Part shown: piece after piece, positions 11,922-51,822 of the stretch
Layout: every line of letters starts with the position of its first letter
Numbering within the stretch: position 1 is the stretch's first letter
NCBI GenBank assembly: GCA_944386495.1
Contig: CALXBE010000015.1
Coordinates: 1 to 52,551 of the forward strand
Source: an uncultured Gemmiger sp.
GTDB lineage: Bacteria; Bacillota; Clostridia; Oscillospirales; Ruminococcaceae
Direction of reading: 5' to 3'
DNA: 52,551 bases
Program-made: the position numbers and the translations under genes
Notes under the pieces: generated by a model
Told to the model about the DNA's origin: nothing
What the model saw: only the letters and a program-made list of their open reading frames with translations
Database searches by the model: none

Positions 11922-12710
11922 TTATCCAAACACCTCTTTCAGATAGGTCAGGCAGCGGTCCAGGGTATCATAATCCGCAGCCTTCATTTCCAGAGAAACA
12001 AACCCCTTATACCCCACAGCGTGAAGGAGCAGGGCCAGTTCCCGGTGGATGGGCCGGGGCTGGATGGGAGCCAGGCCCGGTTCACTGATATGGATGTGGC
12101 TTACATATTTCAGGTCGCCCAGATAGTCATTGAGGGATTCCCCGTTCTGGATCATGGTTCCCAGGTCCAGGTTGACGGTAAGGCCGGGAATATCCAGCTT
12201 TTTCACCAGGTCAAAGGCCTGACGGGTGGTATTGAGATAGTTGGTGTTATAAATGGGAGGGTTGGCTTCCAGGGCCAGGTAGACCCCTTTCTGTCCGGCC
12301 AGGATTCCCAGCCGGGTGAAAAATGCCTCGGCCTCCTGGGGCTGGTGGTCGGGAGGACAGTTCCGCTGCCGGGGGCATCCGAACACCAGGCTGGGGCAGC
12401 GGACAGCCCGGGCAAACTCAAAGGCCTGGGCGGTATACTCCTCCAGCCGGGCAGCATCCTCCTGGTTGAAAATATTTCCATTCTGACCAAACCAGATGCT
12501 TTGAAGGCTGGGAATTTCCAGCCCGTAGTTCTGGTACAGATATCCGGCAAAAATGGCCGCAGAGGAAAGATGTTCATAGGGCTGCCGGGTAAAGATCCGG
12601 GTAGGAGCCAGTTCCAGACCCTCATACCCCAGTTCCTTCAGCCGGGCGTATACCTTTTCGTCTTCTTCCTTGGTCCAGCCCAAGTTGCTGGCTGCCAGTC
12701 TGATGGCCAT
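11922..12710 (-). CDS. Sugar phosphate isomerase/epimerase-like TIM-barrel protein
   Basis: The 262-residue protein belongs to the AP-endonuclease-2-like xylose isomerase fold. Likely metal ligands are the glutamate in L-A-L-E-A-N, the aspartate in V-N-L-D-L-G-T, the H-I-H-I-S-E segment and the glutamate in S-L-E-M-K-A. The family includes epimerases and isomerases of many sugars and cyclitols, so the substrate cannot be named. It sits four bases after the epimerase gene and one base before the GT2 gene. Confidence 0.82.
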   Translation of the reverse strand: MAIRLAASNLGWTKEEDEKVYARLKELGYEGLELAPTRIFTRQPYEHLSSAAIFAGYLYQNYGLEIPSLQSIWFGQNGNIFNQEDAARLEEYTAQAFEFARAVRCPSLVFGCPRQRNCPPDHQPQEAEAFFTRLGILAGQKGVYLALEANPPIYNTNYLNTTRQAFDLVKKLDIPGLTVNLDLGTMIQNGESLNDYLGDLKYVSHIHISEPGLAPIQPRPIHRELALLLHAVGYKGFVSLEMKAADYDTLDRCLTYLKEVFG

Positions 12711-36440: not shown

Positions 36441-36514
36441 GCAAGGGAAAAATACGGGTTCCCTGCCCCAGGCCCAACGGTCCGGCTGGGAGCCATAACA
36501 AGAGGAATAAAGTC

Positions 36515-37483
36515 ATGGAATATCATCTGAACCAAGCCATCATTCACCTGCTGGACAGCGGGGCCAGCGCTCCCCTGCTCAGCGAACAGCCCCTGGTGCT
36601 GGACGACGAGAACAGCGATTACCTGCTGGGACACATTATCAAGCTCCATACCGGAGACGACTGCAAAAACTGCACCTTCCTTCCCGGCAGTCCCTTTGAG
36701 GAAATGCTGATTCGGGAGAAAGAATTTGTTCCCATGAGCCAGTCCGCCGCCCAGATGTTCTTTGAACAGATGATGCGGTATCCGGAAATCCCCAGCGGAG
36801 ACTTGGCTGTGGCAGACCTGACCATTGACGGAAAGCCTTTCCTGGCCATTCTGAAAATGAACTACCGCACCGCCTATCTCCACGATGCAGGCCACCCCGG
36901 TCTGGTCAGCCTGGTGCGGCAGAAGACCATTCTCCCCAGCTCCACCTCCAAGTGTGATGAAGCCATTCTCATTCAGTTGGACACCGGCGCCGTAAAGCTG
37001 GTGGAGAAGCGGGTGGAGATGGACGGCGGCCGGGATTTCTATATTTCCACCAAGCTGCTGAACACCAGCCCCGCCAAGACCGAAAAGGTCAAGCTCCAGG
37101 CAGTGCGGGATGCTGCTCTCCACGCTGTCAAGGAAGCCTACCAGGACGACGGAAAGGTGGAGACTGCGGTAGCCAACATCATCCGGGCGGAGACCTCCGA
37201 GGACATTCTGCCGGTGCAGCAGGTCAAGGCACGGTTGGAACGGGATTTCCCGGAAGCCGCTTCCGCTTTTGAGGAGGAGCTGATTGCGGACGACATCCGG
37301 ATGGAGGAACAAATCACCGTCCCCCCTGCCCGCATCAAGAAAATCACCAGCCGTACCGTGAAGAGCCACAGCGGCATTGAGGTAAAGATCCCCGGGGATG
37401 TATTCCTCAGTGACGAGACGGTAGAGTTCATCAATAACCCGGACGGAAGCGTCAGTTTGCTGGTGAAAAATGTAATTTTATAA
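36515..37483 (+). CDS. 37-kDa nucleoid-associated protein (NdpA/YejK family)
   Basis: The 322-residue protein fits the NA37/NdpA family: the N-terminal I-I-H-L-L-D segment, the central D-L-A-V-A-D-L-T-I-D-G-K-P-F-L-A-I-L-K strand-rich core, and a C-terminal domain. E. coli YejK binds DNA and topoisomerase IV subunits; the role in Clostridia is little known. AAGAGGAATAAAGTC precedes the ATG. It is a single gene just upstream of tRNA-Leu, with no terminator in between, so some readthrough is possible. Confidence 0.82.
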   Translation: MEYHLNQAIIHLLDSGASAPLLSEQPLVLDDENSDYLLGHIIKLHTGDDCKNCTFLPGSPFEEMLIREKEFVPMSQSAAQMFFEQMMRYPEIPSGDLAVADLTIDGKPFLAILKMNYRTAYLHDAGHPGLVSLVRQKTILPSSTSKCDEAILIQLDTGAVKLVEKRVEMDGGRDFYISTKLLNTSPAKTEKVKLQAVRDAALHAVKEAYQDDGKVETAVANIIRAETSEDILPVQQVKARLERDFPEAASAFEEELIADDIRMEEQITVPPARIKKITSRTVKSHSGIEVKIPGDVFLSDETVEFINNPDGSVSLLVKNVIL

Positions 37484-37499
37484 TTTTTCAAAAAAGATA

Positions 37500-37527
37500 T
37501 TGACATCTGCGGAATTAGGTGTATAAT
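37500..37527 (+). promoter_or_regulatory. Promoter of tRNA-Leu
   Basis: Perfect TTGACA and TATAAT boxes with a 16-base spacer, 12 bases before the tRNA. Confidence 0.85.
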
Positions 37528-37539
37528 GAATATTGTTCT

Positions 37540-37627
37540 GCGGATGTGGCGGAATTGGCAGACGCGCTAGATTCAGGTTCTAGTGGCCCTTAAAGCCGTG
37601 GGGGTTCAAGTCCCTTCATCCGCACCA
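37540..37627 (+). tRNA. tRNA-Leu (anticodon CAG)
   Basis: An 88-base class II tRNA with CCA encoded. GCGGATG pairs with CATCCGC. The anticodon stem CTAGA/TCTAG holds the loop TTCAGGT, giving anticodon CAG. The long variable arm TGGCCCTTAAAGCCG is typical of leucine tRNAs. Confidence 0.95.
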
Positions 37628-37674
37628 ACAACAAAAAGAGCCGGTCCTATAGGACCGGCTCTTTTTGTTGTTTT
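37628..37674 (+). terminator. Terminator of tRNA-Leu
   Basis: A long perfect inverted repeat (CAACAAAAAGAGCCGGTCC, loop TATA, then its complement) ends in TTTTTGTTGTTTT. Confidence 0.85.
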
Positions 37675-37730
37675 GATGTTGCGGCGAAGGGACTTGAAGC
37701 TGGTAAAGTATTTTCCGTTAAGAAAACAGT

Positions 37731-37879
37731 CCGGTGGACTGTTTTTAGGAAAATTGTCCCGCAGAGCTATGCTCAAGGGACGAAAGCTTTTGCGAAGCAA
37801 AAGATTTCTCAAGTCCCTTCATCCCGGCCTCTTTCTGTGGCTGACGGCCGAGCGTTCCCAAGTCTTGAACCTGGCAAAG
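37731..37879. repeat. Repeat unit, copy 1
   Basis: Begins CCGGTGGACTGTTTTTAGG and ends near CTTGAACCTGGCAAAG. It includes the 16-base copy of the tRNA-Leu 3' segment at 37809-37824. Its first bases, together with the preceding AAACAGTCC, form a terminator-like hairpin with a T tract. Confidence 0.7.
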
Positions 37880-38013
37880 TATTTTCCGTGCGTCGGGATA
37901 CAGTCCGCTGCCTTCAAGCTGCCCGGACTTTTGCCGGGCAGTTCTCACACCGCTCCCTTATCCCTCCTTTTCCCCGCAAAATCTTGCTTCGCAACCTTTT
38001 GCGGGGGCCCCAT

Positions 38014-38160
38014 CCAGTGGACTGTTCTTAGGCGGAGTGTCTTGAGGGCTGTGCCCGAAAGACGAAAGCTTTTGCAAAGCAAAAGATTTCTCAAGTTCCT
38101 TCATCTCGGCCTCTTTCTGCTCCTGATGGCCGAGCGTTCCCAAGTCTTGAACCTGGCAGA
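38014..38160. repeat. Repeat unit, copy 2
   Basis: Matches copy 1 over about 147 bases with scattered substitutions; the stretch from GACGAAAGCTTTTGC to GAACCTGGCA is best conserved. The tRNA-derived segment (38091-38106) has two mismatches to the tRNA. Confidence 0.7.
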
Positions 38161-38176
38161 GAATCTGAAATCAATG

Positions 38177-38205
38177 TTGAAACCTTAAATTTATTTTGAT
38201 AAAAT
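38177..38205 (+). promoter_or_regulatory. Sigma-A promoter of the small lipoprotein gene
   Basis: TTGAAA and TAAAAT with a 17-base spacer, just after the repeat block. Confidence 0.7.
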
Positions 38206-38235
38206 TAGGTCACTGCAATGAAGGAGGATGTTATT

Positions 38236-38766
38236 ATGAAGAAAAAAGCAGCATTGCTGCTGGCTATATTGGCTTTGGTAGTTCTGATGGCGGCTTGCGG
38301 TCAGAACGGAACTTCGGAGCCTGCCCCCACTGCCACCCCTGAGGCGGCGGAAGAACCGGCAGCAAGCCCGGAACCTGCTTCCAGCCCTGAGGCCCAGCAG
38401 GTAAATCAGGAAGCCGAAGGCCAGAACGCCTCCGATGAAACCAACACTGAACTTGAGCAGGAAATTACTGCCCAAGATGAACAATGGATTCAAGATATGA
38501 TGAATAAGTGGGGTATTTCTCGTGAAGAAGCTGAGCAGGCTCTTCAAGATTCCATTGATAAGGCTGCCCAGGCAGAAGCCGAGCGCAGCCAGACCATTGA
38601 GGAGCGCCAGGAAGAGGAAGCCATTCGGATGGAAAAGGAAAAGCAGCAGGCTGACCAAGAATATGATGAGTTCTGCCCTGAACGCTATGGCACTACCGGC
38701 GACCACTGGGACAGCATGACTTTTGAGGAAAAGGGAGCCTGGATGGAAGCCCATCCCATGAACTGA
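38236..38766 (+). CDS. Small lipoprotein with acidic, coiled-coil body
   Basis: The 176-residue protein starts at the ATG after GAAGGAGG. It has a lipoprotein signal with lipobox L-M-A-A-C (Cys21), then a proline/alanine/glutamate-rich linker (about 25-65), then a charged helical region (about 75-145) rich in Glu, Gln and Lys, and a short C-terminal domain around W-D-S-M-T-F-E-E-K-G. It should be tethered outside the membrane. It has its own promoter and terminator. No known family was recognised. Confidence 0.78.
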   Translation: MKKKAALLLAILALVVLMAACGQNGTSEPAPTATPEAAEEPAASPEPASSPEAQQVNQEAEGQNASDETNTELEQEITAQDEQWIQDMMNKWGISREEAEQALQDSIDKAAQAEAERSQTIEERQEEEAIRMEKEKQQADQEYDEFCPERYGTTGDHWDSMTFEEKGAWMEAHPMN

Positions 38767-38869
38767 CGATCAGGAAGCCAGTGCACCAAAAAGACTTATT
38801 GCAAGCCTGCTTGTATTTGGTCCATAAAATCCTCGCCTCCCCCGTTATAATCAAAATATCCTTAGCACT

Positions 38870-38900
38870 GCTGTCCGGATTTGACCGGACGGCTTTTTCT
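38870..38900 (+). terminator. Terminator of the small lipoprotein gene
   Basis: GCTGTCCGG and CCGGACGGC pair around ATTTGA and are followed by TTTTTCTTTTT. Confidence 0.75.
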
Positions 38901-41206: not shown

Positions 41207-41282
41207 AACAGGCCGAGAGCCTTTCCATTTTTCCCGAAAACAAAAATTCCTCTCTCCCCCAACAGAGGGAGAGAGGGCGGAA

Positions 41283-41340: not shown

Positions 41341-42030
41341 TCAGCCGGAAATCCTGTCCAGCAGGTCATCCAGCTCGGAAACATCATTGATTTCATAAGG
41401 AGCCCGGCGAATGTCCGGGAAGCCCCAGCCCACGGAAGTTTTTACCCAGATAGGCGTGAATCCTCCGTTATAGGCGCCCAGGATATCCAGTTCAGGGTTG
41501 TCCCCTACATAGACCATTTCCCGGCCGGGCAGGTCCATGGCCTTTTCACAGGCCTGGAAAATAGCAGGGTCAGGCTTTTCCGCCCCCACAGCGCCGCTGA
41601 CCAGCACCGTCTCGAACTGGTTTTCCAAACCCAGCTTCCGCAGCTTCCGCCACTGGACCTCGGGGGTCCCGTTGGTGATCATTCCCAGCCGATACCCCTT
41701 CCGGCGAAGGTCTGCCAGCATTTTGAGGGTAAAGGGATAGGGCACCAGGCTCTCTGCCATGGCCGAAATGGCTGCCTCCCCGAACTCTCGGTCATCTACC
41801 TCCGGCAGGAGAACATTTGCCGTCTTCAGTTTCTCGGCAACCGACGGCCATCCGCCAAAATAGTTGTACCGATGGTCAAACTTTACCAGCTGGCGGCCCA
41901 GTTCCTTGGCGATCATGGATTCAGGGAACCAGTTCCGGTGCTCGCTGTGGAGCTGGTAGGCCGCTGCCCGGAGAGAGGAATAGCGGTCATACAGGGTCCC
42001 GTCCAAATCAAAAATTACTGCCCGAATCAT
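41341..42030 (-). CDS. HAD-superfamily phosphatase, last gene of the PTS-iol cluster
   Basis: The 229-residue hydrolase has HAD motif I F-D-L-D-G-T-L-Y-D, motif II I-T-N-G-T, the lysine in A-E-K-P-D-P-A-I-F and motif IV Y-V-G-D-N-P-E-L-D-I. The cap domain after motif I suggests a small phosphorylated substrate, as in phosphoglycolate- or sugar-phosphatases. It lies 25 bases after the alcohol dehydrogenase gene with an AAGGAG site of its own, so it probably belongs to the same transcript. Its substrate could be a pathway by-product. Confidence 0.85.
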   Translation of the reverse strand: MIRAVIFDLDGTLYDRYSSLRAAAYQLHSEHRNWFPESMIAKELGRQLVKFDHRYNYFGGWPSVAEKLKTANVLLPEVDDREFGEAAISAMAESLVPYPFTLKMLADLRRKGYRLGMITNGTPEVQWRKLRKLGLENQFETVLVSGAVGAEKPDPAIFQACEKAMDLPGREMVYVGDNPELDILGAYNGGFTPIWVKTSVGWGFPDIRRAPYEINDVSELDDLLDRISG

Positions 42031-42055
42031 TCAGTAGGTCTCCTTCCCTGCCCTG

Positions 42056-43210
42056 TCACTTCCAGAGCTTTCTGTAAATCTCCTTTACCTCGTCCTGAGA
42101 GACGGGCCGGATGGTGTTCTGGGGGCTTCCGCTCTCCATGGCATCGTGGGACATCTTCTCAATGGCAGCGAAGTAGTCCTCCTTCTTGATGCCGTACTCT
42201 TCCAGGGTGGGAGTATCCAGCTGCCGGGTGATTTGGCCAACAGCAGCCAGGAAAGCGGCGGCGGCAGTCTCGTTATCCATTTCGGGGGTCGCTGCACCGA
42301 TGGCACGGCCCAGGTCTGCGAACCGGCCATAGGCCCCGGGCAGGGCGAAGGCCAGGCACTCATTCATGAGCATGGCATTGGAGATGCCGTGAGCCACATG
42401 GAAAAGGGCTCCGATGGGACGGCTCATTCCATGGATGATGGTAACAGAAGCGTTGTTAAAGGCGATACCGGCCTCCAAAGCCGCCACCGACATCTGGACC
42501 CGGGCTTCCTGGTTGGAACCGTTCTGGTAAGCCTGGGGCAGATACTTGAAAATCCGCTTTACCGCAGAAAGGGCAAAGGTATCGGAGAGGGTCTGGCTCT
42601 TCCGGGAGGTGTAAGCCTCCACTGCATGGCAGAGGGCATCCAGTCCGGTGGCCGCAGTGATTTTGGGAGGTGCAGTCATGGTGAACTGGGGGTCGATCAC
42701 TGCCAGGTCAGGCATAAGGCAGCTTCCCTTGAGAAGCATCTTGATATCCTTTTCGGTATCGGTGATGATGGTAAACTGAGTAGCCTCGGAACCGGTGCCG
42801 GCGGTGGTGGGGATAGCCACCATGGGAGGCATCTCCTCCTCGATGACCTTTCCCATAAACTGGGAGATCTTGCCGCCCTTTTTCACCAGGGCACCGATGG
42901 CCTTCATGCTGTCGATGGGGCTGCCGCCGCCCAGTGCCACCAGGAAATCGCAGCCCTCCTGGCGGTAGAGCTCCAGACCTTTCTGAATCATGAGATCGTT
43001 GGGTTCCCCGTTGATCTCAGCATAGATGGCATACTCTACCCCCTGCTCCCGCAGAGCCTGCTCCACCTTTGCACAGTTGCCCAGGGAGATCATAACCTGG
43101 TCGGTGACCAGAAGGGCCTTTTTCCCCAGGCTGCCCATGGCGGCCTGAGCGGTCTGCAAAGCCCCTTCACCGGTTACGATCCGTCCCGGCACAATAAATT
43201 CTCTTGCCAT
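42056..43210 (-). CDS. Iron-containing alcohol dehydrogenase
   Basis: The 384-residue group III dehydrogenase has G-G-G-S-P-I-D-S-M-K for NAD binding, T-T-A-G-T-G-S-E, and metal ligands in D-A-L-C-H-A-V-E-A and H-G-M-S-R-P-I-G-x3-H-V-A-H-G. Such enzymes interconvert aldehydes and alcohols with NAD(H). In this cluster a likely job is to reduce malonate semialdehyde or another aldolase product to the alcohol; that is inference. It starts 20 bases after iolB. Confidence 0.9.
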   Translation of the reverse strand: MAREFIVPGRIVTGEGALQTAQAAMGSLGKKALLVTDQVMISLGNCAKVEQALREQGVEYAIYAEINGEPNDLMIQKGLELYRQEGCDFLVALGGGSPIDSMKAIGALVKKGGKISQFMGKVIEEEMPPMVAIPTTAGTGSEATQFTIITDTEKDIKMLLKGSCLMPDLAVIDPQFTMTAPPKITAATGLDALCHAVEAYTSRKSQTLSDTFALSAVKRIFKYLPQAYQNGSNQEARVQMSVAALEAGIAFNNASVTIIHGMSRPIGALFHVAHGISNAMLMNECLAFALPGAYGRFADLGRAIGAATPEMDNETAAAAFLAAVGQITRQLDTPTLEEYGIKKEDYFAAIEKMSHDAMESGSPQNTIRPVSQDEVKEIYRKLWK

Positions 43211-43230
43211 TTTTCTCTTCCTCTTTTCTA

Positions 43231-44016
43231 TCAGAACTGTGCATCGTGGAGCCAGACATACCGCTCATCTTCGCAGCGGTCGGTCTGGAGCCAGGGGTTG
43301 CCATCCAGGTGGCGGATCATCCAGCAGGTATACATCTGGAATCCGGGAGCCACCGCCTGGGGGTGAAGCTCCCCGCCGGGGATGGCAGAGAAGCTGCCGT
43401 CAGTGCTCTTGAAAACCTGGTCCCCTACAAAGCTGGCGCCGAATCCTTCCGGGCGGTCAAACAGGAAGTAGTAGGTCTCGGGCTGGGGATGACGGTGAGG
43501 CAGATAGCCGGACCAGTTTCCCCGGTCGTTGAGCACCTCTCCCAGAACCATGTTGGACCAGGGGGCGATGTCATGGTCAAAGATGGTGTTTACACGGCGG
43601 TTGGCCACATTTCCGAACTTGCCCTTGCTGGAGTAAGCCCAGGGAGCATCCTGAGGCTGGTACAGCTTGGCGGGGAATTCCTTTTCGTTCTTGGTGCACT
43701 GGACCAGAATCTCGCTGGGAGCCTGGGCAGTGACGGTGACCTGGGTGCCGCTGCAAACATGGAGGGCCCAGGGGCCTTCCGTAAAGACATCCTTCCGGCT
43801 GGCGCCGGCGGTCTGGCCCTCCCAGCCGAAGGTCACTTCGCCCTTCAGCAGAAGGATGGCAGTCTCCTCCCCTTCGCGGGAGAACTGGCGGGTCTGGCCA
43901 CAAGCCAGGCGGTAGACCCGGATGTCCATCATCATGGCGCTGTATTCGTTGGTATAGGTAGTAAGAATCTTTTCCCCGTTTTCGTCAAACCGGGGATATC
44001 CAAAAACTTTGCTCAT
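43231..44016 (-). CDS. iolB: 5-deoxy-glucuronate isomerase
   Basis: The 261-residue double-cupin protein matches IolB, which converts 5-deoxy-D-glucuronate into 2-deoxy-5-keto-D-gluconate in myo-inositol breakdown. Zinc ligands are expected in H-R-H-P-Q-P-E-T-Y-Y and G-G-E-L-H-P. The ATG at M-S-K-V-F-G-Y, ten bases after AAGGAGG, is preferred over one eight codons upstream. It is followed by a dehydrogenase gene and preceded by iolC. The earlier enzymes of the pathway (IolG, IolE, IolD) are not in this window. Confidence 0.9.
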   Translation of the reverse strand: MSKVFGYPRFDENGEKILTTYTNEYSAMMMDIRVYRLACGQTRQFSREGEETAILLLKGEVTFGWEGQTAGASRKDVFTEGPWALHVCSGTQVTVTAQAPSEILVQCTKNEKEFPAKLYQPQDAPWAYSSKGKFGNVANRRVNTIFDHDIAPWSNMVLGEVLNDRGNWSGYLPHRHPQPETYYFLFDRPEGFGASFVGDQVFKSTDGSFSAIPGGELHPQAVAPGFQMYTCWMIRHLDGNPWLQTDRCEDERYVWLHDAQF

Positions 44017-44049
44017 ACTGGTTTTGCCTCCTTGCTCCACTGAACCGGG

Positions 44050-45084
44050 TCAGACCCGGGCCACCATTTCCCCATAGAGGGACTTTTCTTCCTGGATAAA
44101 ATCCCTTACCTGCTGGGCATTGGGGAGGGAATCACTGCAGTTGTTGCTGCGGACCATCATGGATGCCTCGGCAGAGCCGAACTCCAGGCAGTCCTGAATT
44201 TCCCATCCCTGGTAAAGGCCATACAGGAATCCGGAACCATAGCCGTCGCCGCCGCCGAAGCCCTTCCGTGCCTTGACGGGGAAAGGCTTGATGGAGAAGC
44301 TCTGTCCATCGCAGGTGTAGGCGGTGGAGCCCTGCATTCCGTGTTTGATGACCACCAGCTTGGCCCGGCGGCCATGCCAGTAGGCGGCAGATTCTTCATC
44401 GGTCATGCCGGGGCGGATCAGCTTCTCGGTCAGGTCAAACTCTTCCCGGGAACCCATGATAATATCCGCTTCCTTGGCCACCACCGAGTAGTAAATGGAA
44501 ATCTCATCGCTGTTTTTCCAGTTGTAGGCCCGGTAGTCGATGTCAAAGATGATGGGAGTGTTTACCTGCCGGGCTACCATCACCGCCTTGATGGCGGCTT
44601 CCCGGGAAGGACTTTCTGCCAGGGCAGTGCCGGAGATAAGCAGGGCTTTGGCCTTGGCGATATACTCCGGGTGGATGTCTTCCACCGACAGCTGCAGGTC
44701 GGCAATGCAGTTCCGGTACATGAGGATGCTGCTCTCGCTGGGAGAGAGCATCTCGGTGAAGGTCAGTCCCAGCTTCTCGCCGCCGGTACATTTGGTGATG
44801 CAGGTAGTGTCGATCCCCTGCTCATTGAAGTAGTCCACCACAAATTCACCGAACTGGTCATCCGATACCTTTCCGATGAATCCGGCCTTCATTCCGTGGT
44901 GGGTCACTCCTACGGCGATGTTTGCAGGGCTGCCCCCCACAAACTTTTCAAACATATGTACTTTTTTCAGAGGCTTAAACTCTTCCTTCACCTGGTCATT
45001 GTAGGCAGGGTTAAAATCGATTGCCACCCGTCCCAACAGCACCAGATCCAGAGGTCTGGTCTGGTCCAATTCCAAATACTTCAT
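44050..45084 (-). CDS. iolC: 5-dehydro-2-deoxygluconokinase
   Basis: The 344-residue PfkB-family kinase resembles IolC, which phosphorylates 2-deoxy-5-keto-gluconate. It starts with the substrate strand L-G-R-V-A-I-D-F-N-P, has G-G-S-P-A-N-I-A-V-G for sugar binding, and the ATP-site motif G-F-G-G-G-D-G-Y-G-S-G with the catalytic aspartate. It lies between the HPr-like gene and iolB. Other PfkB sugar kinases are possible, but pairing with iolB supports the call. Confidence 0.88.
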   Translation of the reverse strand: MKYLELDQTRPLDLVLLGRVAIDFNPAYNDQVKEEFKPLKKVHMFEKFVGGSPANIAVGVTHHGMKAGFIGKVSDDQFGEFVVDYFNEQGIDTTCITKCTGGEKLGLTFTEMLSPSESSILMYRNCIADLQLSVEDIHPEYIAKAKALLISGTALAESPSREAAIKAVMVARQVNTPIIFDIDYRAYNWKNSDEISIYYSVVAKEADIIMGSREEFDLTEKLIRPGMTDEESAAYWHGRRAKLVVIKHGMQGSTAYTCDGQSFSIKPFPVKARKGFGGGDGYGSGFLYGLYQGWEIQDCLEFGSAEASMMVRSNNCSDSLPNAQQVRDFIQEEKSLYGEMVARV

Positions 45085-45131
45085 AACCGTTCCTTCCTTT
45101 CAGCCGGCAGGACTTTTCCCAGTGCGGGGAA

Positions 45132-45404
45132 TCAGCCGTCCAACTCTCCCAGACCACTCTCAATGTAGTCTGCCAGCATCTTCAGGTCCTCTTCCTCGTT
45201 GGGGCCGTCGCAGCTGACAGTGATGATGCTTCCGCAGCCGATTTCCAGGGTCAGCAGCTTGAGCAGCCGCTTGGGGTCCTCGCTCTTGCCGTCCTTGGTG
45301 ATGAGGGTTTCAGAGGTACACTTTTTTGCCATCTTTACCAGATTTCCGGCAGGACGCAGGTGAATACCGGTGGGGTTAATGACTTTTACATCTTTCTTGA
45401 CCAT
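45132..45404 (-). CDS. HPr-like phosphocarrier lacking the regulatory serine
   Basis: The 90-residue protein has the HPr fold and the phosphorylation site G-I-H15-L-R-P-A, where EI places a phosphate that passes to EIIA. At position 46, where Gram-positive HPr carries the serine used by HPr kinase, it has arginine (P-K-R46-L-L-K). It should carry phosphate for its own PTS but escape the Ser46 switch that controls CcpA. It is placed between the EIIA gene and iolC, so it is a dedicated carrier and not the general HPr. Confidence 0.9.
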   Translation of the reverse strand: MVKKDVKVINPTGIHLRPAGNLVKMAKKCTSETLITKDGKSEDPKRLLKLLTLEIGCGSIITVSCDGPNEEEDLKMLADYIESGLGELDG

Positions 45405-45442
45405 GACAGTTGACTCCTTTAATTCTGATTTTTCCCGTTGAT

Positions 45443-45976
45443 TTACAGGATGCTGATCTCAATATCGTCCTTCAGCTCTTCAATGTCAGTGACCTTCTTC
45501 ACGGCATTGTCCTGGTTGCTGAAAGCATCGATGAGATCCTGATAGCAGGTCATTTCCTTTACCAGATCCATGGTGTTGCCCTTTGCAAGGCTGCCTGCCA
45601 GCTTGTTCAGCATCCGAAGCTGTACCTCCCCGTACTGGCTCTTGGATACGCAGAACAGAAATACAGTTTTGATGGGCTCGTCATCCAGGCTTCCCCAGTC
45701 ATCAATGGTGCCCCGGCACTTGCCTACGGCGATGCCCAGCTTTTTGACGGCATCAGATTTTCCGTGAGGGATGGCAATGCCCTCTCCGATACCGGTCTCC
45801 TCCACGGCTTCACGCTCGTAGATGTCTGCGACGAACTGTTCCAGGTCGTCAATGTATCCTGCCTCCAGCAGCAGCTTGCTCAGGTGCCGGAAGGCCTGAT
45901 CCTTGGTGGTGACATCCATGTCACAGTCCACAACTCTTTCGTCAAAAATCTCGAGAATGTTCAGTTCTTCGCTCAT
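45443..45976 (-). CDS. PTS EIIA, fructose/mannitol type
   Basis: The 177-residue protein is a PTS_EIIA_2 domain with the active histidine H71 in G-I-A-I-P-H-G-K. It takes phosphate from HPr and gives it to the separate EIIB (51032-51340). An extra C-terminal tail of about 20 acidic residues follows the domain. It lies 15 bases after the regulator gene, which ends in a related EIIA-like domain. Confidence 0.92.
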   Translation of the reverse strand: MSEELNILEIFDERVVDCDMDVTTKDQAFRHLSKLLLEAGYIDDLEQFVADIYEREAVEETGIGEGIAIPHGKSDAVKKLGIAVGKCRGTIDDWGSLDDEPIKTVFLFCVSKSQYGEVQLRMLNKLAGSLAKGNTMDLVKEMTCYQDLIDAFSNQDNAVKKVTDIEELKDDIEISIL

Positions 45977-45991
45977 AGCATTTCTCTCCTC

Positions 45992-47992
45992 TCAGCTAAT
46001 AAGATATTTGTACATTTCAGAACTGGTGGGAATATTGCGGATCACATCCACCTTTTCCTTGGTATCTGTGAGCTTCACAAAATACTTATAAAACTGCCGG
46101 ACATTGTCCGTCTCGGTGACGGTATTTGTTTTAATGGCCAGCAGGAAAATCACATCCACCATCTCGCCGTTCCAGTTGATAGGCTGCTGGAGAGTGCAGA
46201 TGCAAACCTTGGATTGGTTCACCCCGCCGGGGAAGCCGTGGGGAATTGCTACCCCGTTGCCGATGGCAGTGGTGGTAGCCTTTTCTCGGGTCATTACCGA
46301 GTCGAAATACCCGGGCATAACATATCCTTCTTTTACCAGCTTGTCCACCATGGTCCGGAGGATCTCCTCCTTGCTGGTGAGGGGGCAGTGGATAAACATA
46401 AGGTCCGGGTCCAGCAGCGGGATGCTGCTGATGGCCAACTTTTCGTCCTGACGGTCCCGGTTGGCTGTAAGGTCCCTCAGATCCTGCTTCAGCTTCAGCT
46501 CGGCATCGTCCGAGAATACCTTGGGAACCAGAATAAGCCGTTCATCCTGGCCTATCCCGGCTACTGCCCGCTGTACTGCGCCGTCCTCGGTAACGAGGGC
46601 GAAATCATTTTCTTTCAGCAGTTCGGGCACAAAATTCTGTACGCTGACCGGCTCCAGTTTCACGATTCTGGGGAAGGCTTTCTGAATCTTCATGGCGGTG
46701 AGCTGGGCATGGATATCGTTGGCCTGAACCACCAATATTCCCCGCAGGCTCCGCTTCTTTCGTTCCAGGGCCACTTCCACATAAAGAGTGATATAAAGCA
46801 GCTCATCAGCGGTGACATTCACATTAAAGTAGCTTTCAAACAAGGTACTGGTAGACCAGGCTGCCCGGAACACATTCTTGTATTCCTGCCGGGTGTAATC
46901 CAGCAGCTCGTCCACTTTTTCGTAGCCATACCGTAACCGGAAGACAGCGGGTCGGAGATGCTGGAGCAGCCCTTCATAGAGCTGCACATCCTCCGTCAGA
47001 TCCTCTCCCAGGACCACGCTCATGGTGGCGATAACATCCTTGGTGAAGGCTTTCAGTTTACTGTCATACTCGAAAACATCGTTGGCCGCACGGGGGTCCT
47101 GGGGACTGCCGCAGGCCATGCCGGTGCAGAGGATCAGCTTTGCCAGGTTGAGGACTTCCTCTGCCGGGAAGCGGATTCCTTTCTTTTTGGCCAGCATATC
47201 CACCAGATTGGAGGAAAACTCAAACTCCTTATGCTTGGCAATTTCCACTTCTTCCTCTTTGGAAAGGGGCTCGATGGCGTGGCCTGTGTTCATCCGATAA
47301 ACCGCAATGACCAGATAGAGCCATATATCCCGGAAGGAGTAATCGCTGAATTCCAGCCGCCAGATATTCTCGGCGTTGACCAGGCATTGCCGGACCTCCT
47401 CCATCAGGACTGCCGGAAGGAACTCCTCCACCGATTTGATGGTCCCATCAAAATAATTTTGGAGCAAGTGGTTTTTGAGCACATTCCGGTAATTGCTTTC
47501 GGAGGTTTCCAAAGTAATTCCCCGGTTTTGCACCGCCTGAATCTGGATTCCGTTTTTCTCCAGCCAGGCCGCTGCAAGCTGAAAACTTTTCTTGGCCGCC
47601 GGAGGACTCAGGTAGAGCTTCTGACCAATGGCATTCAGGGTCAGGGGCTGAGATTTGCGCATCTGAAAAATCAGCCGCAGGACTTCGTCCCGACGGAGAT
47701 TCTGGTCTGAGATGAACTCCTGGTTGGAGGTAGCCTCCTTGACTTCCTGGCGAAGGGCTTCCCGCTGAGATTCAGTGGCCTCCAGCCAGATTCCCACATG
47801 GGGTTTTCTGGTCAGGGTCCCCAACTGGTTTTCCGCAAGATACTCTTCCACATTTCCCAGTTTGGCGCGGACGGAATTTTCTGCAATTCCCGCTTCCTCT
47901 GCCAGCATGGAAACGGTCACCATGTCGTGTCGGAGCAATGATCCCAAGATACGGCCCCGGTAAAATCTTTCTTTTTCTGTTTTTTTGGTCAT
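45992..47992 (-). CDS. BglG/MtlR-type regulator with PRDs and EIIA-like domain
   Basis: The 666-residue protein has N-terminal helix-turn-helix segments (about 10-65 and 100-160), two PTS regulation domains (about 185-295 and 305-412), an EIIB-like linker without the usual cysteine (about 415-500) and a C-terminal EIIA-like domain (about 525-660) with H585 in A-I-P-H-G. This is the layout of MtlR/ManR-type activators. Of the canonical PRD histidines only H345 (L-Q-H-L-R-P-A) is clear. It likely controls its own operon in response to the PTS state. Confidence 0.88.
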   Translation of the reverse strand: MTKKTEKERFYRGRILGSLLRHDMVTVSMLAEEAGIAENSVRAKLGNVEEYLAENQLGTLTRKPHVGIWLEATESQREALRQEVKEATSNQEFISDQNLRRDEVLRLIFQMRKSQPLTLNAIGQKLYLSPPAAKKSFQLAAAWLEKNGIQIQAVQNRGITLETSESNYRNVLKNHLLQNYFDGTIKSVEEFLPAVLMEEVRQCLVNAENIWRLEFSDYSFRDIWLYLVIAVYRMNTGHAIEPLSKEEEVEIAKHKEFEFSSNLVDMLAKKKGIRFPAEEVLNLAKLILCTGMACGSPQDPRAANDVFEYDSKLKAFTKDVIATMSVVLGEDLTEDVQLYEGLLQHLRPAVFRLRYGYEKVDELLDYTRQEYKNVFRAAWSTSTLFESYFNVNVTADELLYITLYVEVALERKKRSLRGILVVQANDIHAQLTAMKIQKAFPRIVKLEPVSVQNFVPELLKENDFALVTEDGAVQRAVAGIGQDERLILVPKVFSDDAELKLKQDLRDLTANRDRQDEKLAISSIPLLDPDLMFIHCPLTSKEEILRTMVDKLVKEGYVMPGYFDSVMTREKATTTAIGNGVAIPHGFPGGVNQSKVCICTLQQPINWNGEMVDVIFLLAIKTNTVTETDNVRQFYKYFVKLTDTKEKVDVIRNIPTSSEMYKYLIS

Positions 47993-47996
47993 GTCA

Positions 47997-48620
47997 TTAC
48001 ATGTCTTTCGTGAGCATGGAGGAAAGGCTGCTCTCCTCCTCAGTTTTCAGTGCCTGGGCCGCAATGGTCCGGAACAGATGGTCCACATCCTCTGCGGACC
48101 AGATGGCCGGAGCCTCTTTATGGAGCCGGGTCAGTTCCGTCACCAATTCCTGACGGCGGATGATACCCTTATCCCCGGAAATTTTTCCGGGCAGATTGTC
48201 CGGCAGAAGAAGGCGGAAAGTCACCGGGATCTTCTCTGAACCGTAGACAGTCCCCTCCAGTTTCTTCTGGACATTTTCGCTGAAAAACGCTTTGGTCCGT
48301 GCGATAGAGTTTGCGGCAGGTGCTTTGGTACAGATCCCAAATACATAACAGCCGGAAGAGAGAAATACCGTCATAAAGGAAGCCGGAACCATCTTTTGGT
48401 CCTCCAGGGCAGAGAAGATGATCCGGTGAGGCCCGAAGGCATCCCGGAAGGCGTAGCTCTCCGACATTCCCTCGATGCTCTTTCTCCGGCTGCGGTACTC
48501 AATGAAGGAGCTGTATATCATCTTGTACACGCTGTTCTTATACATCCTGAACTCATAAAATATTTTGCCGCCCATGAAGATAAGAATAATGCTGATAAAG
48601 CCCCAAGTAAATAGATCCAT
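47997..48620 (-). CDS. Membrane-anchored protein of unknown function in the PTS operon
   Basis: The 207-residue product begins with one hydrophobic helix (about residues 5-22, M-D-L-F-T-W-G-F-I-S-I-I-L) and a soluble part of about 180 residues containing F-G-P-H-R-I-I-F-S-A-L-E-D-Q-K-M and L-S-S-G-C-Y-V-F-G-I-C. No catalytic motif or family was recognised. A GACAGGTG site precedes the chosen ATG. It stops 4 bases before the regulator gene and follows the structured element at 48640-48772. Tight linkage suggests that it serves this PTS or its regulator. Confidence 0.65.
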   Translation of the reverse strand: MDLFTWGFISIILIFMGGKIFYEFRMYKNSVYKMIYSSFIEYRSRRKSIEGMSESYAFRDAFGPHRIIFSALEDQKMVPASFMTVFLSSGCYVFGICTKAPAANSIARTKAFFSENVQKKLEGTVYGSEKIPVTFRLLLPDNLPGKISGDKGIIRRQELVTELTRLHKEAPAIWSAEDVDHLFRTIAAQALKTEEESSLSSMLTKDM

Positions 48621-48639
48621 AACACACCTGTCTTTTTGT

Positions 48640-48772
48640 ACAAAAGGCAAGGAGCCCCGCCACCCCGGGCACACCCATACAGCCGCCCGTGGGCAGGACC
48701 ATCAATGGTGTGGACGGTGCCTCCCCACGGGGGTTTGGCCGGTGGCTTAGGGCTCCTTTTCCTTTTTCTGAA
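48640..48772 (-). repeat. Long nested inverted-repeat element between aldolase and membrane-protein genes
   Basis: The ends pair over AAAAGG, AAGGAGCCC and GCCACC, and inside them CCCGTGGG pairs with CCCACGGG, capped by ACCAT-TG-ATGGT. The whole folds as one rod of about 120 bases. It may be an RNA processing or attenuation element, or a small transposable (MITE-like) sequence with imperfect terminal repeats of about 18 bases. I saw no second copy in the window. Confidence 0.6.
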
Positions 48773-48787
48773 ACGCTGTTGGTCGGA

Positions 48788-49672
48788 TTACTCCTTGCTG
48801 GTAGAAACGGCAGCACCGTAGTAGTAACGGTTGCAGCAGCCGATCATCTGCATGTAATCCTCTACAAACTTCTTGACCCCTTCCTCGGTATCCATGCAGA
48901 GCTGCAGGTAGTCCTTGGAGGGATTCTCATTGTATGCAGCCATGAAGGCATCCTTGGCAGCCTGGAAAGCATCGGTAGCAACATTGATCTTGTTGATGCC
49001 GCACTCAACAGCCTTCCGGATGTTGGCCTCGCCGGCGCCGCTGCCGCCATGGAGAACCAGAGGCATCTTCAGGGTCTGCTTGAGCTGGGTCAGCCGCTCA
49101 AAGTCCAGTTTGGGAATCTTTCCCTTGGGATATGCGCCATGGGCGGTGCCGATGGCCACAGCCAAGGCATCCACGCCAGTGCGGTCCACAAAGTCCTTTG
49201 CCATGGCAGGATCGGTGAGGAAATCTGCATTCTCATCGTCCTCGTCAGCTGCCTGGCCAACATGGCCCAGCTCAGCCTCTACGCTGCAGCCGTGGGGATG
49301 TGCCAGAGCGCAGACCATCTCGGTGCGGGCTACATTCTCTTCATAGGGAAGAGAGGAACCGTCAAACATAACATTGGTGAAGCCGGCCCGGATGCAGTCC
49401 ACCATATCCTCAAACTTGGAACCGTGGTCCATGTTCAGGCATACGGGAACGCTGGCCCGCTGGGCCAGCTCGGTAACCAGGGGAACCATTTCCTCCCGGT
49501 GAGCATGTTTTCCCATCTGGCCGGGGCCCATCTGAATGATGATGGGAGCATGCATCTCCTCGGCGGCACGAATGGCGCCACGGACCATCTCCATGTTGAT
49601 GGAGTTCATGGCCATAACGGCGTAGTTGTGCTTGTTTGCGTGGTCCAGAATAGCTTTCATGGATACTAACAT
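48788..49672 (-). CDS. Class II fructose-bisphosphate-type aldolase
   Basis: The 294-residue zinc aldolase belongs to the FbaA/GatY/KbaY/IolJ family. Zinc and active-site motifs are N-M-D-H-G, V-E-A-E-L-G-H-V-G, A-I-G-T-A-H-G and V-L-H-G-G-S-G. Such enzymes split ketose (bis)phosphates; IolJ splits 2-deoxy-5-keto-gluconate-6-phosphate to DHAP and malonate semialdehyde, which fits iolB and iolC downstream. I chose the ATG nine bases after AGAGG. A standard glycolytic role is less likely because of its place inside a PTS operon. Confidence 0.88.
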   Translation of the reverse strand: MLVSMKAILDHANKHNYAVMAMNSINMEMVRGAIRAAEEMHAPIIIQMGPGQMGKHAHREEMVPLVTELAQRASVPVCLNMDHGSKFEDMVDCIRAGFTNVMFDGSSLPYEENVARTEMVCALAHPHGCSVEAELGHVGQAADEDDENADFLTDPAMAKDFVDRTGVDALAVAIGTAHGAYPKGKIPKLDFERLTQLKQTLKMPLVLHGGSGAGEANIRKAVECGINKINVATDAFQAAKDAFMAAYNENPSKDYLQLCMDTEEGVKKFVEDYMQMIGCCNRYYYGAAVSTSKE

Positions 49673-49752
49673 TTTCAAATACCTCTGTGCTTTTGTGTGC
49701 TTTTGTAAGGGGGATAATTCCTACCTTTTCTGAAAAAAGAGCTATCAAGAAA

Positions 49753-49797
49753 CAGCGCAGAAGGAAGAGCCCCCCTTCTGCACTGTTTTTTTTACTC
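49753..49797. terminator. Hairpin between EIIC and aldolase genes
   Basis: GCAGAAGG pairs with CCTTCTGC, extended by ACAG and CTGT. Eight T residues follow on the plus strand and TTTCTT on the minus strand, so for the minus-strand operon it could be a partial terminator that lowers expression of the downstream genes. Confidence 0.6.
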
Positions 49798-49833
49798 AGG
49801 ACTCTACCTGGTAAAACCTTAACTTGCGGGGGA

Positions 49834-50988
49834 TCAGATCTGAATATTCAGGTCCAGATCCACCATTTCTTCTTCGCCTGCATCCTCAGGCAGAGGCTTG
49901 CGGATGAAGGCGTACATAACACCGGTAACAACGGAACCGGCAACGAGAGCTACAACTGCCATGAGGGGGTTGACCATCATGGGGAATACGAAGATACCAC
50001 CGTGACCGGCTACAGATTCTACGCCAGCTGCTACTGCGATACCACCGGCGATGGCAGAACCAACGACGGAGGAAGGAATGAAACGCAGGGGGTCAGCAGC
50101 AGCGAAGGGCAGAACACCTTCGGTGATGAAGCAGAGGCCCATGGGCAGAGCAGTGAGAGCAGTGTCCTTATCAGCCTGGTTGAACTTCTTGGGAGCGATG
50201 AGGGTGGAGATCCAGATGCCCACAGGAGGAGTCATACCGCCGATGATCTTAGCAGACATAGGTCCGTTGACACCGTCGGCACCCAGAGCGTTGGCGGCCA
50301 TGGATGCGGTCTTGTTGACGGGACCACCCAAGTCAAAGCCCATACAGCCGCCGATAACAGCACCGATAACGAACTTGGCACCGCCGTTCAGGGCCATAAT
50401 CCAGTTCTGGAGAGCGGTCATACCGGCTGCCATGGGGCGCATAAGTACGATGCAGAAGAGCATGCCGCAGACCAATGTGGATATGACCGGAATAATCAAA
50501 ACGGGCATCAGACCGGCGCACCACTTGGGAACCTTCCAGGTCTTCATCCAGTTGATGAAGTAGCCGATAACGAAAGCCATCAGCAGGCCGCCGATGAAGC
50601 CAGCCTTGGACTGAGCACTGGCATAGCCGATAACCAGGCCGGGGACAATGCCGGGACGGCCGGCAATGGCGTAAGCAGCACCGGCAGTCAGAACGGCAAC
50701 AGCAAAGTTCATGGCGTAGGTGGACAGCATGTTAACGCCCCACCAGAAAGCGTACCAGAAACCGCCGAGTGCACCTTCCACAGCCACAAAGCCGTTGGTG
50801 GGTACCCAGTCAGGGTTCAGCGCGGTAAACATATTGCTGAAGGGAGTGGCGCCAGAAAGCACTGCATTGCTGATATCGTAGTCGCCAAGGCCCTTAGCCA
50901 GAGCGCCCAGAATACCGCCAGCAACCACCATAGGGATCATGTAGGAAATACCGGTCATGACCGGGTCCTTAATCTTCTTGATGTTCAT
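49834..50988 (-). CDS. PTS EIIC, fructose family permease
   Basis: The 384-residue membrane protein has about nine helices and the fructose-family EIIC features: M-T-G-I-S-Y-M-I-P-M-V-V-A-G-G at the start, G-F-D-L-G-G-P-V-N-K in the centre and I-T-E-G-V-L-P-F-A-A-A-D-P. It moves the sugar while EIIB phosphorylates it. Here A, B and C are separate proteins, whereas many fructose PTS proteins are fused. It starts 43 bases after the EIIB gene. Confidence 0.94.
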   Translation of the reverse strand: MNIKKIKDPVMTGISYMIPMVVAGGILGALAKGLGDYDISNAVLSGATPFSNMFTALNPDWVPTNGFVAVEGALGGFWYAFWWGVNMLSTYAMNFAVAVLTAGAAYAIAGRPGIVPGLVIGYASAQSKAGFIGGLLMAFVIGYFINWMKTWKVPKWCAGLMPVLIIPVISTLVCGMLFCIVLMRPMAAGMTALQNWIMALNGGAKFVIGAVIGGCMGFDLGGPVNKTASMAANALGADGVNGPMSAKIIGGMTPPVGIWISTLIAPKKFNQADKDTALTALPMGLCFITEGVLPFAAADPLRFIPSSVVGSAIAGGIAVAAGVESVAGHGGIFVFPMMVNPLMAVVALVAGSVVTGVMYAFIRKPLPEDAGEEEMVDLDLNIQI

Positions 50989-51031
50989 AAAGAATGATTC
51001 TCCTCCTTGTTTGGATTTTTAGAAGTCCCGA

Positions 51032-51340
51032 TTACTTGCCCAGCTTCTTGGCAATGGAAGTAAGTACGGACTTGGGGCTCTTCATGGCCAGGCTGATAGG
51101 AATGTCTACCAGGGGCTTGCCCTTGAAGCGAGCGGTGTCCACATTGATATCGTGAGCAATGAGAACCACATCGGCGCTTGCGATGTCTTCGGGGGTCAGA
51201 GCATCGTCTACCCCGATAGAGCCCTGGGTCTCGATCTTGATCTCATACCCCAGTTCCTTGGCAGCGGCCAGCAGCTTCTCCTTAACCAGATAGGTGTGGG
51301 CGATTCCTGCAGTGCAGGCAGTAATTCCGACAATCTTCAT
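51032..51340 (-). CDS. PTS EIIB, fructose type
   Basis: The 102-residue EIIB domain has the phosphocysteine C9 in T-A-C-T-A-G-I-A-H-T. It receives phosphate from EIIA and passes it to the incoming sugar on EIIC. The ATG after AAAGGAGG is chosen; a longer frame has no ribosome site. It is the first gene of the operon, about 100 bases after a TATACT box. Confidence 0.93.
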   Translation of the reverse strand: MKIVGITACTAGIAHTYLVKEKLLAAAKELGYEIKIETQGSIGVDDALTPEDIASADVVLIAHDINVDTARFKGKPLVDIPISLAMKSPKSVLTSIAKKLGK

Positions 51341-51489
51341 TTTGTGTTGTCCTCCTTTCATCTTTTTCTTCCACCAGTGCAAAACAGCTTTTCGCTGCAC
51401 CGATGGAGGAAACGGATCGTCGTCCATCGATTCTGTTATTAGTATACTCCGGGTTCAGATTGCAAACTGTACATTTTCACCCGCTCAAT

Positions 51490-51774: not shown

Positions 51775-51817
51775 TTTTAAAATGAAATATTCCCCTCACA
51801 AGGACATGTGAGGGGAA
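51775..51817 (-). terminator. Terminator of the ywlG gene
   Basis: TTCCCCTCACA and TGTGAGGGGAA form an 11-bp stem, followed on the minus strand by TATTTCATTTT. Confidence 0.75.
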
Positions 51818-51822
51818 TCCCG

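Follow-up and report, generated by a model that had tools for sequence, protein, structure and literature searches.

A bacterial gene cluster that joins a sugar phosphotransferase system (PTS) to part of the myo-inositol (iol) pathway raises the question of what it degrades, and of whether its two halves serve one pathway. In this study, we investigated such a cluster in a stretch of 52,551 nucleotides from an uncultured Gemmiger sp. (contig CALXBE010000015.1; hereafter the window), which is contig C15 of a source genome of 1.89 Mb and 81% completeness. A preliminary description had regarded the cluster as a candidate new catabolic system that is entered at 5-deoxyglucuronate. Judged by its sequence, the cluster is a chimera of a fructose-type PTS-aldolase module and a Lachnospiraceae-type lower iol branch, consisting of iolC, iolB and an iron alcohol dehydrogenase (ADH) gene. 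The co-occurrence of the two halves was observed in this genus only, namely in two of the three genomes examined from it and in one (L061) of the best 80 of 155 IolB loci.

Gene cluster and its maintenance

All eleven genes named in the preliminary description were recovered in the order given there, as co-directional genes, all of them open, that run along the minus strand, beginning at 51340 and ending at 41341 of the window (Table 1). The starts of EIIB, the aldolase, the membrane protein and IolB in the table are corrected ones. The gaps between the genes measure 4-47 bases, with the exception of 161 and 167 bases flanking the aldolase gene. The cluster is framed by two terminator-like hairpins, a class of sites of which 15 were found against 11.6 expected (standard deviation 3.9), so that their excess is not clear. 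Family scans with Pfam and NCBIfam covered ten of the eleven proteins, that is, all except EIIB. As a whole, the cluster has the appearance of a single transcription unit put together from two sources. A tandem repeat was also sought at 36500-38900 of the window and none was found there.

Table 1. Coordinates of the cluster genes and of the framing hairpins in the window
Feature	Position	Strand	Remarks
Terminator-like hairpin	51789..51818	-	12-pair stem; upstream of the cluster, behind a YwlG-type gene
PTS EIIB, fructose type	51032..51340	-	51% identity to Listeria EIIB; ACTAG active-site motif
PTS EIIC, fructose type	49834..50988	-	TIGR01427, 252 bits (cut-off 158)
Class II aldolase, PTS-linked clade	48788..49672	-	without the bisphosphate-type DPR motif
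Membrane-anchored protein, function unknown	47997..48620	-	no Pfam or NCBIfam family
PRD/EIIA-domain transcriptional regulator	45992..47992	-	PRD, EIIA_2, weak Mga helix-turn-helix
PTS EIIA, fructose type	45443..45976	-	TIGR00848, 109.6 bits (cut-off 103.5); IPHG motif
Dedicated HPr	45132..45404	-	catalytic His retained; regulatory Ser-46 position occupied by Arg
IolC, 5-dehydro-2-deoxygluconokinase, PfkB kinase	44050..45084	-	TIGR04382, 366 bits (cut-off 300)
IolB, 5-deoxyglucuronate isomerase, divergent clostridial clade	43231..44016	-	Pfam KduI/IolB, 167 bits
Iron alcohol dehydrogenase, Lachnospiraceae iol operon type	42056..43210	-	family scans, operon comparison
HAD-IA phosphatase-like protein, last cluster gene	41341..42030	-	family scans
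Terminator-like hairpin	41249..41276	-	12-pair stem and T tract; after the HAD gene

The same gene order was observed in a separately named public metagenome-assembled genome (MAG), at locus L061, with protein identities of 92-100%. In the single pairwise comparison of the window with L061, dN/dS was 0.00-0.10 for all eleven genes, and all of them look to be under purifying selection. Because of the shared order and these low ratios, an assembly artefact or decay is unlikely. The cluster was carried by two of the three genomes examined from the genus, all of which are incomplete (81, 77 and 84%), the one without it being 77% complete. The dS values of the same pair were uneven, with 0.38-0.46 for the EIIA, PRD and membrane protein genes (window 45443-48620) and 0.10-0.23 for the other cluster genes, which may reflect recombination inside the operon.

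Lower inositol branch

The IolC protein clears the NCBIfam equivalog-domain cut-off and sits inside the iol clade, and its best solved-structure match is 2qcv (E 4e-91). IolB scored below the NCBIfam TIGR04378 cut-off (91 against 205 bits) and its solved-structure match was weak (2qjv, E 6e-4). The IolB of the complete iol operon of Eisenbergiella tayi likewise showed no match to the NCBIfam IolB model at E 1e-30, which indicates that this model scores the clostridial clade low. The window IolB falls among the IolB proteins of iol operons and keeps their near-invariant residues.

An IolB search of genome contigs yielded 155 relatives, and the best 80 were taken as loci for a neighbourhood survey; besides L061, they belong mostly to Lachnospiraceae and their kin, at 76-83% identity. 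These loci were searched with the cluster genes together with iolD, iolG and iolE of E. tayi, whose IolC, IolD, IolG and IolE queries all clear their NCBIfam cut-offs. Relative to the window proteins, IolC in these loci was mostly 80-87% identical (minimum 66%) and ADH mostly 67-76%. Both iolC and iolB were present in 64 of the 80 loci, and iolD lies between them in 62 of these (partially in L130), leaving only L061 and L135 without it. The usual order is iolC-iolD-iolB, often followed by the ADH gene, iolG and iolE; 46 of the 80 have an iron ADH of at least 60% identity no more than 5 kb behind iolB. PTS genes of the cluster type occurred in a single locus of the 80, L061. No iolD, iolG or iolE of at least 50% identity was detected in five loci (L061, L132, L134, L135 and L139), although little sequence follows iolB in L132 and L134. 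Within the same family, the 297 genomes searched included 13 with an IolC at E 1e-60 or better, two of which belong to the genus; the loci L223, L224 and L225, from outside the genus (IolC 80-85% identity), all have iolD between iolC and iolB, and the latter two, whose contigs equal those of L066 and L114 in length, are probably from the same genomes as these.

In the IolC tree, the window protein was placed within a 60-row iol clade (SH-aLRT 100), beside L119 and L098 with support of 80-85, and the IolC of L135 fell in a different set (support 96). Since the two lie in separate sets, the tree points to two or more losses of iolD from between iolC and iolB, L135 probably being a second, independent one. 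The IolB tree has no bearing on the number of losses, as it joins the window and L135 in one unresolved fork. L135 (5297-11960) comes from a Pseudoflavonifractor MAG and carries iolC-iolB-ADH without iolD between; its stretch stops 171 bases after the ADH gene, so iolG and iolE beyond are not assessable. An SBP_bac_3 amino-acid-type ABC transporter and an SBF-type transporter lie upstream of this trio.

Near-invariant columns, defined as at least 97% conserved among the other rows, number 138 in IolB, 197 in IolC and 166 in ADH. The window is changed at 0, 2 and 4 of them, respectively; at the same columns, the other rows showed medians of 1, 0 and 1 changes and maxima of 4, 26 and 12. As these columns are almost unchanged, the three enzymes probably keep their iol reactions, and the iron ADH is likely a malonate semialdehyde reductase. 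Both IolC and IolB fall among iol-operon proteins in the trees, and not among proteins of other known function as the preliminary description had allowed for. This bears on whether IolB and IolC have been repurposed for another deoxy-uronate or sugar phosphate imported by the PTS. The loss of iolD leaves the usual supply of the two enzymes unclear, and the branch leading jointly to the IolC proteins of the window and L061 is long, at 0.26 compared with 0.04 for the median end branch, which would fit such a change of role; with the near-invariant columns so well kept, we consider the repurposing decidedly improbable.

Upper inositol genes

The trio might also form the latter part of an inositol pathway that is complete, its iolD, iolE and iolG lying in unassembled parts of the genomes. 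Nothing over the cut-off was obtained in the window's genome for IolE (best 19 bits against 290), whose model exceeded its cut-off in two of 14 control genomes. The same held for IolD (best 227 against 715), whose model matched in all 14 controls and exceeded the cut-off in three, the score of 227 being the level expected of other thiamine enzymes. When the three genus genomes were searched with the E. tayi proteins, IolD gave only thiamine-enzyme-like matches (the best-scoring at 28% identity; short pieces at 31% or less) and IolE gave no match, in a search run without a positive control genome. Neither the cluster nor L061 showed an IolG, for which no genome-wide search was made.

In the available excerpts of PMC9430895, the core genes of an iol cluster are iolB, iolC, iolD and iolE, and membership takes at least three of them; the window cluster has two, iolB and iolC, and neither iolD nor iolE turned up in the three incomplete genomes. 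The earlier proposal of a lower iol branch linked to a PTS without IolD and IolE is therefore borne out in these genomes, and the complete iol operon elsewhere that could have overturned it did not appear there, IolG standing outside this check. The completeness of 77-84% leaves room for a complete pathway, as do the restriction of the IolG check to the cluster and L061 and the report, in the same excerpts, that the fourth core gene lay elsewhere in 810 of the 1,024 genomes showing just three (PMC9430895). Nevertheless, none of the three genomes yielded IolD or IolE, and the chance that both carriers miss one shared locus is about 3% (0.19 x 0.16) if the gaps are independent, though they may correlate. 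A complete but unassembled pathway is, on balance, improbable.

PTS module and its regulation

EIIC relatives were detected in 80 of 398 genomes of the phylum and, at E 1e-40, in 47 of 297 genomes of the family, the own genome being included in both counts; the best relatives outside the genus were 49% and 53% identical across some 290 residues. PTS genes together with a class II aldolase were noticed in at least five of ten EIIC neighbourhoods (L179, L180, L181, L182 and L183), and another family genome (L226) has aldolase, EIIC, EIIB, EIIA and PRD genes with a PTS Enzyme I gene adjoining the aldolase. No IolB relatives were found in the ten neighbourhoods by a search based on open reading frames (ORFs), a detection that missed the L179 aldolase (a spurious antisense ORF) and may have similar misses elsewhere. 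Distant PfkB kinases, probably of FruK type, occur at L185 and L187; L186 also has a PfkB kinase, recognized by eye but overlooked by the IolC query, and kinase detection at the EIIC loci is hence imperfect.

The modules of L179 to L183, of L226 and of the Listeria locus L193 have no IolC or IolB relative nearby. Since the module exists without these two enzymes, its aldolase probably cleaves the PTS product directly. With PRD, EIIA, EIIB, EIIC and class II aldolase genes side by side, the aldolase belonging to the same clade as in Listeria, the window cluster is of the lmo2133-2138 type; the PTS half of the presumed new system is not new, the same module being present in Listeria and others.

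These observations also bring in the view that the transcript is common to two separate pathways. In that case, the PTS and aldolase would handle a ketohexose, ordinary or rare (fructose, tagatose or sorbose type), as its ketose-1-phosphate, and iolC-iolB-ADH would serve 5-deoxyglucuronate or 2-deoxy-5-ketogluconate (DKG) entering otherwise. It agrees with the module found without iol genes in other genomes and with the use of a fructose-type PTS, a class II aldolase and TagK for D-tagatose in enteric bacteria and Bacillus licheniformis, as given in the excerpts of PMC10101011. It leaves the operon without a dedicated DKG-phosphate aldolase, however, and offers no reason for both sets to share a gene row and a regulator in both genomes. 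We regard it as possible, if somewhat unlikely.

The membrane protein has no relative in 391 genomes of the class except in its own genome, and its predicted model is poor (pLDDT 46.6); at 92% identity between the window and L061, it is the least conserved cluster gene of that pair. The cluster HPr keeps its catalytic histidine, and an arginine replaces the regulatory serine, which we take to be Ser-46. This replacement suggests a phosphocarrier outside HPr kinase control. Two other HPr genes over the cut-off were found in the genome, one of which (L037) is also without that serine.

Aldolase

In a 47-row tree, the aldolase was grouped with those of L179, L226, L180, L183 and Listeria L193 (bootstrap 100, SH-aLRT 98), outside a 25-row clade of iol aldolases that is itself supported 100/100. 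The IolJ-like identity given to it by the preliminary description could not be upheld: the tree puts it in the PTS-linked clade, and its placement in the iol clade (25 iol rows and the window) was rejected by the approximately unbiased (AU) test (p 0.005), for a group chosen after the first aldolase tree had been seen. Rows with long branches or incomplete ends (L055, L083, L123 and L105) were dropped before the 47-row tree, L107 and L092 were skipped in the first tree, and two iol-locus aldolases that fell elsewhere (L111 and the second of L086) were kept out of the tested group. The PTS-aldolase clade appeared as sister to the iol aldolases with support of 87 in the first tree and 61/27 in the better one, from which we draw no claim.

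It had further been proposed that the PTS and IolC phosphorylate opposite ends of the substrate, giving a bisphosphate that the aldolase splits into two triose phosphates. Many bisphosphate aldolases belong to this family, and the best solved match of the aldolase model (pLDDT 87.7) is AgaY, a tagatose-1,6-bisphosphate aldolase, followed by fructose-bisphosphate aldolases, SqiA (8q59, at rank 8) and YdjI; these matches do not settle the substrate. GatY and KbaY have a DPR motif near the C-terminus, with arginine there in L192 also, and this arginine presumably binds the C6 phosphate. It is missing in the window aldolase as well as in the PTS and iol aldolases; YdjI and the L056-type rows are also without it, so its loss points to no single substrate. 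If the presumed role of the arginine holds, its absence makes a bisphosphate substrate unlikely. Two triose phosphates would, moreover, need no aldehyde reductase. The bisphosphate route is accordingly disfavoured, and we consider it very unlikely.

Proposed pathway

The reading that we tentatively prefer, at somewhat less than even confidence, is that 5-deoxyglucuronate and/or DKG feed DKG-phosphate, which the PTS-linked aldolase splits, the ADH reducing the aldehyde. IolB would convert 5-deoxyglucuronate into DKG, and IolC would phosphorylate DKG to DKG-phosphate. The aldolase would then cleave DKG-phosphate into dihydroxyacetone phosphate and malonate semialdehyde, and the iron ADH would reduce the latter with reoxidation of NADH. 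Entry at 5-deoxyglucuronate, as in the preliminary description, is plausible.

For the PTS arm, the layout of DKG matters. Read from its other end, DKG is a sugar acid with a C1 hydroxymethyl and a C2 keto group, and its C1-C4 layout is that of fructose; fructose-type EII usually phosphorylates C1, and on DKG the product would be that of IolC. Because of this shared layout, a fructose-type PTS could yield DKG-phosphate directly. The substrate imported by the PTS would be a similarly shaped ketose, DKG being the simplest choice, and phosphorylation of its C1 hydroxymethyl would make the IolC and PTS arms converge on DKG-phosphate. That the PTS imports and phosphorylates DKG, an inositol-breakdown intermediate perhaps released by other gut bacteria, IolB and IolC salvaging the unphosphorylated acid, is a doubtful proposal that we put forward as unlikely.

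Several points weigh against the preferred reading. The aldolase lies outside the IolJ clade, so orthology does not imply that it cleaves DKG-phosphate, and a PTS that made DKG-phosphate itself would leave IolC and IolB unneeded for that route. A gut source of free DKG or 5-deoxyglucuronate is not known to us, and the titles and abstract openings searched named none. The long IolC branch leading to the window and L061, the four ADH changes, which are among the higher counts of their set, and the incompleteness of all three genomes have to be added.

A PTS joined to iolB and iolC was not found in the titles and abstract openings searched. If the proposed flow is true, the lower half of inositol degradation can operate independently with a supply from outside, and this would be the first PTS tied to the lower inositol branch among the cases compared. 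Should the PTS carry DKG, those of the lmo2133-2138 type would by extension take up a deoxy-ketose acid like it, a concrete candidate substrate for a PTS family for which we found none. The cluster suggests that this gut-type bacterium feeds on a partly degraded inositol acid and not on inositol itself, and it suggests cross-feeding on half-degraded inositol in the gut.

Other loci and window genes

Other loci with IolB-type genes were observed. L132 (2569-10675) has an IolB of 78% identity and no other iol genes in the stretch, which extends 1.6 kb after IolB; a glucoside-type PTS, a GH2 enzyme, UxuA and a mannitol-dehydrogenase-family enzyme (glucuronate catabolism type) precede it. IolB of 78% identity also occurs at L139 (10001-10777) and L134 (10001-10783), with no iolC, iolD, iolE or iolG in the flanks examined (10 kb on each side for L139; 0.2 kb behind IolB for L134). 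IolB relatives of 40-47% identity at L040, L041 and L044-L053 have no iolC or aldolase relative nearby, that of L040 adjoining GH43, GH2, an MFS transporter and a PfkB kinase. L056 (6164-16133) harbors an IolB above the equivalog cut-off, a ribokinase-like kinase, a class II aldolase and a DUF4867 protein, along with SftI-like (sulfoquinovose isomerase family), GlcD-type, Fe-S and ETF-like proteins and an XylB-like kinase; it is possibly an uncharacterised sulfo- or deoxy-sugar pathway. L057 and L059, from other families of the order, resemble L056 in their IolB, kinase and aldolase relatives, full annotation having been made for L056.

In the source genome, a second KduI-family gene (L002, G000:C12:55427-56011) lies near a PfkB-like kinase gene (L144, G000:C12:56921-57424), and this pair probably serves uronate catabolism. 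Within the window, a small xylose-isomerase-like TIM barrel protein (11922-12710), recognized by eye among glycosyltransferase-like genes, was unmatched by the IolE search, and a long ORF (2924-4843) resembles, by eye, an IspH domain fused to S1 RNA-binding domains.

Comparison with known systems

Listeria lmo2133-2138 has the same PTS subunits, PRD regulator and aldolase clade as the window cluster, and its E. coli homolog is, we presume, the operon named frz. The order at L193 is PRD-EIIA-EIIB-EIIC-aldolase-aldolase. The window, in contrast, has EIIB-EIIC-aldolase-membrane protein-PRD-EIIA-HPr, with one aldolase instead of two, an added HPr gene and the joined iol genes. L193 was identified as lmo2133-2138 by the gene list in the excerpts of PMC2996996, which describe the operon as that of a fructose-like PTS and mention its homolog in extraintestinal E. 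coli; frz is a carbohydrate metabolic operon in those of PMC12928451, and no substrate is stated in the excerpts of either paper.

The D-tagatose PTS of enteric bacteria and Bacillus licheniformis (TagKTH with GatY) shares the fructose-type PTS and the class II aldolase; the window cluster has no TagK, its only kinase being IolC (PMC10101011, excerpts). The Sulfo-EMP2 pathway of sulfoquinovose shares the logic of isomerase, sugar kinase, class II aldolase and aldehyde reductase, with a FucI-family isomerase (SqvD) and a PfkA-family kinase (SqiK) according to the excerpts of PMC9594981, whereas the window has a KduI/IolB isomerase, a PfkB kinase and a PTS. Sulfoquinovose catabolism was set aside on account of these differing isomerase and kinase families.

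The Lachnospiraceae iol operon (iolC-iolD-iolB-FeADH-iolG-iolE, for example in Eisenbergiella tayi, L102) differs from the window cluster in having iolD, iolG, iolE and an aldolase of the IolJ clade. The trio stands in the same relative order in both, with identities between the window and L102 of 81% for IolC, 81% for IolB and 71% for ADH.

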